The notes under the pieces were generated by a model. That model worked only from the letters and a program-made list of their open reading frames with translations. It made no database searches and was not told the origin of the DNA. 64,000 bases of DNA from Chitinophagales bacterium (GTDB taxonomy: Bacteria > Bacteroidota > Bacteroidia > Chitinophagales > UBA10324), in assembly GCA_013816805.1 (NCBI GenBank), contig JACDDS010000005.1, positions 1 through 64,000 on the forward strand, in the 5' to 3' direction. Position numbers and translations under genes: made by a program. Below are positions 1,852 to 2,937 of the stretch, one piece after another. The number at the start of each line of letters is the position of its first letter. Position 1 is the stretch's first letter.

Positions 1852-1926
1852 GAGATCTTAGCTCAGTTGGTTTAGAGCGCTTCCTTGACAGGGAAGAGGT
1901 CGAGGGTTCGATTCCCCCAGGTCTCA
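1852..1926 (+). tRNA. tRNA-Val (anticodon GAC)
   Basis: The 75-nt sequence folds as a cloverleaf: acceptor GAGATCT/AGGTCTC, D stem GCTC/GAGC, anticodon stem CTTCC/GGAAG around TTGACAG (anticodon GAC), T loop TTCGATT and discriminator A. CCA is not encoded. The T stem (GAGGG/CCCCC) has one A-C mismatch at the 50-64 pair, which is unusual; all other stems are sound. An open frame that crosses this gene on the other strand is not a protein gene. Confidence 0.95.
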
Positions 1927-2014: not shown

Positions 2015-2428
2015 TTAATGAATAAGAAGTATGGTTCCAAAAATAATCATCACAATTCCTGCTATCATTTTTAGTGTTAGCGTTTCACCTAGAAAAATAA
2101 CCGCCAAAACAATGGCAATTGCAACGCTTGCCTTATCCACCGGGGCTACTTGAGATACTTCCCCTATTTGAAGTGCCTTAAAATAAAAAATCCAGCTTAA
2201 CCCGGTTGCTATACCTGATAAAACGAGAAAAAGAATATTATATCTTGTCAGTGAATATATAGAATCAGTGCCTCCGCGAAACCATGCAATGCCCCAGGCT
2301 AAAAATAAGATCACCACAGTGCGAATAGCTGTTGCCAGATCGGAATTAACATTTTTAATCCCGATTTTTGCAAAGATTGCAGTGAGTGCTGCAAAAGATG
2401 CGGAAAGCAAGGCGTAAATCCACCACAT
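2015..2428 (-). CDS. EamA-domain permease, half-size
   Basis: A small membrane protein with one EamA (drug/metabolite transporter) domain of about four to five helices, where full-length members carry two. It would act as a dimer in the inner membrane. The start MWWIYALLSA matches where the domain begins; an in-frame ATG 33 bases upstream (2461) is possible but adds only a polar leader. Motifs typical of the family are AIFAKIGI, the charged FRGGTDS loop and VDKASVAIAIVLAVIFLGE. It follows crcB on the same strand with a gap of at most 49 bases, so it is probably on the same fluoride-controlled transcript. Substrate unknown. Confidence 0.85.
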   Translation of the reverse strand: MWWIYALLSASFAALTAIFAKIGIKNVNSDLATAIRTVVILFLAWGIAWFRGGTDSIYSLTRYNILFLVLSGIATGLSWIFYFKALQIGEVSQVAPVDKASVAIAIVLAVIFLGETLTLKMIAGIVMIIFGTILLIH

Positions 2429-2477
2429 AGGTTTAAGTTTTAAGATACTGACTGGAATCACGGTACGAGATCATATC

Positions 2478-2855
2478 CTAAAAAAAATTTAGGATCGATT
2501 TCCCAATGAATAAAGCACCAAAGCAAAATAATACACTTGCCAAAGTGTACAAAAGGGCTGTCCCGTATTGGCCGGCCTGAATCAGCACCATATTCTCGTA
2601 AGAAAAACCGGAAAATGTTGTAAAGCCGCCGCAAACTCCTATAGTTAGAAATATCAGCCATTCTGAACTGAGCAATCCTGTTTTTTCTGCCAGTGCATAT
2701 AAAAATCCCATAAGTAAACAGCCAATAACATTTACAGTAATTGTTCCAAATGGAAAAGCGGAAGGAAAACAGGAATTAATAAATTGAGTAAAGTAAAATC
2801 TGGCTACGCTTCCCAGGAAACCACCTGCGCCTACTAATAAAAATATCCTGTTCAT
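2478..2855 (-). CDS. crcB: CrcB/Fluc fluoride channel
   Basis: This 125-residue, four-helix protein is a Fluc channel that exports fluoride as a dual-topology dimer. Diagnostic motifs are GAGGFLGSVARF at the N-terminus, FPFGTITVNVIGC (the polar-track Asn helix) and GVCGGFTTFSGFS, with the conserved Phe and Ser/Thr residues of the pore. The length is normal for the family. The assignment is strongly supported by the fluoride riboswitch directly upstream. The next gene on the strand is the EamA permease. Confidence 0.96.
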   Translation of the reverse strand: MNRIFLLVGAGGFLGSVARFYFTQFINSCFPSAFPFGTITVNVIGCLLMGFLYALAEKTGLLSSEWLIFLTIGVCGGFTTFSGFSYENMVLIQAGQYGTALLYTLASVLFCFGALFIGKSILNFF

Positions 2856-2925
2856 ACAGCAAAAGTTTTATATTGAACAGGAGTTATCAGCTTGTTTAAG
2901 GCGGTTAAAGGCGAACCCCATCGCC
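2848..2925 (-). promoter_or_regulatory. Fluoride riboswitch (crcB motif) with translational platform
   Basis: On the minus strand the aptamer runs from 2925 to about 2879. It starts with GGCGATGGGGTTCGCC, continues with a TTTAACC linker and a short GC/AAGC hairpin, then CTGAT and AACTCC. This matches the crcB-motif order; GGGGTT and AACTCC can form the pseudoknot with one G-T pair. Downstream, CTGTTCA (2880-2874) is perfectly complementary to TGAACAG (2854-2848), which includes the TG of the crcB start codon. That stem would bury the start when fluoride is absent. A -7 box lies immediately upstream. Confidence 0.88.
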
Positions 2926-2929
2926 AAAG

Positions 2930-2937
2930 CAAAAATA
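2930..2937 (-). promoter_or_regulatory. -7 box for the crcB-eamA operon
   Basis: On the minus strand the bases read TATTTTTG, an exact TAnnTTTG match. It ends five bases before the first G of the fluoride aptamer, so the transcript would begin at the aptamer itself. Confidence 0.6.

Follow-up and report, generated by a model that had tools for sequence, protein, structure and literature searches.

A fluoride riboswitch with a hairpin over the crcB start codon, probably controlling translation, in a member of the order Chitinophagales

The window, which is the whole stretch of 64,000 nucleotides analysed here, contains on its minus strand a fluoride riboswitch aptamer, followed by the fluoride exporter gene crcB and a gene for an EamA permease. 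The features of the locus, in the order of the transcript and with the basis of each assignment in brackets, are as follows.

2930 to 2937, minus strand: putative -7 promoter box TATTTTTG, Bacteroidota consensus TAnnTTTG (sequence)
2871 to 2934, minus strand: fluoride riboswitch aptamer, RF01734 (cmscan)
2914 to 2919, minus strand: 5' strand of the pseudoknot, GGGGUU (sequence; Rfam consensus alignment)
2880 to 2885, minus strand: 3' strand of the pseudoknot, AACUCC, the final UCC of which is common to the platform hairpin (sequence, Rfam alignment, fold)
2874 to 2882, minus strand: 5' arm of the platform hairpin, UCCUGUUCA, with the inner extension UAUA at 2872-2869 past the bulged A 2873 (fold, covariation)
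2846 to 2858, minus strand: 3' arm of the platform hairpin, UGUA-UGAACAGGA, with crcB codons 1-3, AUG AAC AGG (fold, comparison, covariation)
2478 to 2855, minus strand: crcB (Fluc) fluoride exporter, 125 aa (PF02537, TIGR00494)
2470 to 2499, minus strand: hairpin across the crcB stop codon, AUCCUAAA-UUUUU-UUUAGGAU, between crcB and eamA (fold)
2015 to 2428, minus strand: single-domain EamA permease, 137 aa, 49 nt past crcB (PF00892; start from relatives)

In the cmscan search, the match to RF01734 at 2934-2871 (minus strand) scored 53.7 bits against a gathering score of 34 (E = 4.4e-12, computed over 64 kb and 4227 families), and this is the sole match to the family in the 3.57 Mb assembly. 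The motif elements GGCGATGG, TTCGCC, AACC and CTGAT are all present, and the pseudoknot strands GGGGTT (2919-2914), in the P1 loop, and AACTCC (2885-2880) form six pairs, one of which is G-U. The original prediction had named these elements and a six-base pseudoknot, and had proposed a search of the minus strand with the Rfam covariance model; the result of that search bears it out. The gene downstream of the aptamer is crcB, a fluoride-response gene, the product of which scored 99.8 bits for PF02537 and 101.8 bits for the NCBIfam equivalog TIGR00494 (cut-off, 80.45 bits).

The 3' end of the putative -7 box TATTTTTG lies five bases ahead of GGCGATGG, so that the aptamer would stand essentially at the 5' end of the transcript, transcription starting at it or just before it, in agreement with the start site that had been predicted. 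Of 98 related aptamers, 68 have TAnnTTTG in the 45 nt or so upstream, whereas the rate in shuffles is 3%; no clear -33 box was seen at this locus. We also examined a sample of the host family, consisting of the window's genome (G000) and 15 other family members. While 12 of the 16 genomes carry crcB, an above-cut-off fluoride riboswitch occurs only in the window's genome, and no remnants of a riboswitch were found before crcB at nine loci of this family. The window's genome may have acquired its riboswitch-crcB unit from a different family of the order, or the remaining family members may have lost it.

Between the aptamer and the beginning of crcB, TCCTGTTCA (2882-2874) and TGAACAGGA (2854-2846) form a platform stem of 9 bp, and beyond a bulged A, TATA and TGTA (2858-2855) add 4 bp more. 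The hairpin has a folding energy of -12.8 kcal/mol (z -5.75 versus shuffles). CTGTTCA and TGAACAG, formerly proposed as the two arms, do pair, but they are only part of this longer 9+4 bp stem, and the ATG (2855-2853), which was said to lie partly in the second arm, is enclosed as a whole. The first three bases of the 5' arm, UCC, belong to the pseudoknot strand AACUCC; thus, the full platform stem and the fluoride-bound pseudoknot are mutually exclusive, and -4.2 kcal/mol is left of the stem without the UCC pairing. By helix score alone, 39 of 4000 shuffled leaders (about 1%) equalled the helix of the window, which is therefore modest evidence by itself, and the comparative data carry the case. 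A longer OFF fold, in which GCUGAUAA is paired to crcB codons 6-8 and AACCGCC to codons further on, also appears in the folding; we do not claim it, because the paired codons encode the conserved LLVGxGG motif.

Our survey of the same order covered 398 genomes and found an above-cut-off fluoride riboswitch in 56, giving 60 sites, and every leader was inspected. By inspection, the aptamer tail pairs with the gene start at 54 of the 60 sites, the pairing tail beginning in these with the CCU of the pseudoknot strand, and at 48 of the 60 the helix between tail and gene start falls within the top 5% of shuffles. In most of these, the common type, the arm ends 0-6 nt before the ATG, as in CCUACAAAU...AUUUGUAGG-AUG, and the genes encode CLC-type exporters and in some cases CrcB; Voltage_CLC (PF00654) was found in both members scanned (L013 and L029). 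In an in-register comparison for which the arm was picked by its AGG near the ATG, real partners formed a mean of 8.5 contiguous bp, against 6.1 when the partners were exchanged at random between loci (2000 shuffles, highest value 7.1). For the upstream-arm type, 87% of the positions are paired versus 75% in shuffles, and there are 54 double-change cells versus 22, a covariation score that none of 500 shuffles reached; in pair counting, no slid register approaches the score of the true one. The signal is weaker in other orders of the class, where 12 of 39 sites are within the top 5% of shuffles. A CrcB search of genome contigs gave only five remote relatives and no information on the platform.

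Some other leaders call for comment. At L134, L146 and L147, CGCCUACAAUA pairs with UAUUGUAGGUG, with AAAAAATTAAAA directly after, about 100 nt past the platform arm; the ATG annotated in the scan is much further on, and a GTG at the arm may be the start. The riboswitch of L135 (aptamer 1501-1571) has a gene at +128, with the start MKITKVEAIEILDSRGNPTIEA, that looks like enolase, a fluoride-inhibited enzyme. L139, L143, L144, L148, L152 and L155 form a crcB group at the level of a genus, and their leader is short. In these, a pairing of CUCCUAC with GUAGGA at crcB codons 7-10, which would place the ATG in the loop, is not convincing because it is confounded by the conserved VGxGG motif.

In the window and at L008, L009, L010, L011, L018 and L154 (the last from another order), the arm is the crcB start itself, in the single register ATG NNN AGG, which the ATG sets, independently of complementarity. 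Codon 2 is AAC, TAC, AGT or GAC, and the matching aptamer tail is GUU, GUA, ACU or GUU, respectively; 98% of the positions are paired, with compensatory double changes at all three positions of codon 2. As the loci were not to be chosen by complementarity, a search of about 790 genome slots was performed with a pattern that prescribed the aptamer core, the ATG and the AGG but allowed any codon 2. It gave nine true riboswitch-crcB leaders besides the window (L160-L164 and L166-L169), part of which had been identified before, and one locus, L165, that contains neither riboswitch nor crcB. Codon 2 pairs in all nine except L164, which breaks two of the three pairs, and the covariation score of the enlarged set is still above every shuffle. 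AGG accounts for 79 of 13,740 codons (0.6%) in the larger genes of the window, and it was not found at codon 3 in any of 14 riboswitch-less crcB genes examined. This subtype comprises only about ten loci, a number of them close relatives of one another, and they span at least four bacterial families.

These data favour, with some reserve, the view that the arm consists of the first three crcB codons, that the tail and codon 2 co-evolve, and that the RNA dictates an N-terminus M-x-R of the exporter, the logic being that of the order-wide start-hiding platform. Comparative covariation supports the earlier proposal of a platform that hides the crcB start. The aptamer class, the control of crcB, translational platforms and AUG sequestration are already known. 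The start-site platform of the order and the crcB subtype with codons 1-3 in the stem have apparently not been described before; we found no earlier description in mostly open literature, which is weak evidence of novelty.

We regard it as quite likely that the locus is a fluoride-activated, mainly translational riboswitch that controls crcB, with EamA as a neighbour. Bacteroidota do without Shine-Dalgarno sequences, and their translation is tuned by the structure at the start codon and by upstream adenines (PMC6847099); a switch in this phylum must therefore act on the start region. Moreover, the common type lacks a U-tract and the window has only a weak one, which favours translation control that is ON with fluoride; the ON logic follows from the known class and the anatomy of the leader. 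According to the model, the hairpin would win without fluoride, burying the AUG and codons 2-3 and blocking initiation. With Mg2+ and fluoride, the pseudoknot would be locked and the hairpin would lose its three lowest pairs (two C-G and one U-A), which would reduce it from about 12 to about 4 kcal/mol; ribosomes would then open the remainder, and from the opened start CrcB would be made and fluoride exported. When both pseudoknot strands were blocked in the folding, the AUG was still paired, in the 6+4 bp that remained of the stem (about -4 kcal/mol). As the AUG stays in this stem, the switch probably acts by cutting the cost of opening by roughly 8 kcal/mol and not by full exposure of the AUG, which in fluoride would be an assumption and not a prediction of the folding.

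We considered whether termination of transcription contributes. A dual device, in which a weak terminator also hides the start codon, is a lesser possibility that we take seriously: the geometry permits both functions, and Barrick and Breaker count riboswitches whose terminator lies no more than 10 nt from the start codon among the dual ones (PMC2258182), but the terminator required is as weak here (d = -26) as it is for termination alone. Somewhat less probable is pure transcription attenuation, in which the same hairpin would be an intrinsic terminator, with codons 1-3 as its stem and codons 4-7 (AUA UUU UUA UUA) as its U-tract, and fluoride would prevent termination. Transcriptional fluoride riboswitches do share the overlap of pseudoknot and terminator stem (PMC13273304, PMC11077080), and the sequence after the stem is U-rich in the crcB subtype (5-7 of 8 bases; 6 of 8 in the window). 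However, the terminator score is poor, at d = -26 in the window and 1.4 at best among the relatives; the stem is A+U-rich, the predicted loop is 10 nt and the run is UAUUUUUA. To judge by this score and tail, the hairpin is not an intrinsic terminator of the kind with a strong G+C stem and a U-tract; the simple terminator scanner, which accepts only loops of 3-8, is blind to the platform hairpin. The same codons are also U-rich in several riboswitch-less crcB genes, because they encode hydrophobic residues (Ile, Phe, Leu, Val), and the common type keeps the helix at the ATG although it has no U-tract (mean 2.0 U in 8, versus a background of 2.45). These observations argue for control mainly at translation.

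Downstream, the hairpin across the crcB stop codon is near-perfect and AU-rich (-10.1 kcal/mol, z -3.2), with no U-tract after it; its possible roles are to set crcB apart from eamA or to protect the end of the crcB mRNA. A tRNA gene at 1852-1926 (plus strand), with the anticodon loop UUGACAG (Val, GAC, by eye), is convergent with the crcB-eamA unit. In the case of eamA, the start is likely ATG 2428 and not GTG 2461 (the ORF being 2461-2015), because relatives at 55-83% identity begin with MWW(I/V)YALLSA or a similar sequence. The product has one PF00892 domain (77.8 bits), and relatives with 39-83% identity in 22 sampled genomes of the order are stand-alone proteins of the same size in varied neighbourhoods. 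The description of the protein as half-size is thus right as to the single domain, but this is the normal form of the relatives and not a truncation.

The original prediction also suggested EamA as a possible new member of a fluoride-response operon, and proposed a search for crcB-EamA pairs. That EamA is a genuine member of the fluoride regulon, exporting for example a fluorinated or fluoride-linked metabolite, would agree with its position on the same strand 49 nt downstream of crcB, and no TAnnTTTG box was found in the 200 nt before its start. We nevertheless consider such a role very doubtful. None of the approximately 22 relatives in the order has crcB within 1.5 kb, and no EamA gene lies downstream at the other riboswitch-crcB loci; the one near L036 is upstream of that riboswitch and not under its control. 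At the sister loci, crcB is followed instead by DUF190, inorganic pyrophosphatase or Usp genes, with a gap to the next gene of -1 to 15 nt where the start lies in the stem and of as much as 48 nt in L026; both pyrophosphatase and Usp have been described from fluoride operons (PMC5533749). In addition, control of translation at the crcB AUG would not directly extend to a gene with a start of its own, and a hairpin lies between the two genes. EamA is probably a chance neighbour, perhaps co-transcribed, outside the fluoride response, and a single neighbour of this kind needs to recur before it is taken for a new fluoride gene. Finally, that the helix over the crcB start is a chance inverted repeat and the riboswitch uses another platform is highly improbable: about 1% of shuffled leaders match its strength, but the same ATG register with compensatory changes recurs at about ten loci from at least four bacterial families.

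Compared with known systems, the locus agrees with the RF01734 class in aptamer sequence, pseudoknot, linker, the controlled gene crcB and the expected ON logic, and its aptamer differs in nothing except the G-U pair in the pseudoknot. The CLC-F (eriC-F) riboswitches of the order (L013, L025, L063 and others), in which the tail CCUACAAAU pairs with AUUUGUAGG beside the ATG, likewise show compensatory changes, but their arm lies 0-6 nt upstream of the ATG instead of over it, and the gene encodes an exporter of the CLC type (PF00654 in L013 and L029) instead of CrcB. In the fluoride operon of Enterobacter cloacae FRM, crcB is under a fluoride riboswitch, as in the window, and is accompanied by pyrophosphatase and Usp, as at the sister loci of the window (PMC5533749); neither partner is present in the window, where EamA takes their place. 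The transcriptional fluoride riboswitches known from Bacillus cereus and Thermotoga petrophila have a platform hairpin that, like that of the window, gains bases from the 3' strand of the pseudoknot through strand exchange (PMC11077080, PMC13273304), whereas the window has its far arm beside or on the start codon and lacks a good terminator. The published full-length models rest on terminator-type members; the locus offers a covariation-backed model of a translational fluoride platform. AUG sequestration itself is known from the add adenine riboswitch of Vibrio vulnificus, which, like the switch of the window, is ligand-ON and holds the AUG in its OFF helix (PMC5847336). The add riboswitch has a different ligand and aptamer and also hides a Shine-Dalgarno sequence (PMC5847336), whereas in the window, from a phylum that lacks Shine-Dalgarno sequences, codons 1-3 form the arm. 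The locus presents a clean riboswitch case in a phylum whose ribosomes ignore the Shine-Dalgarno sequence, the switch acting on the region of the start codon.
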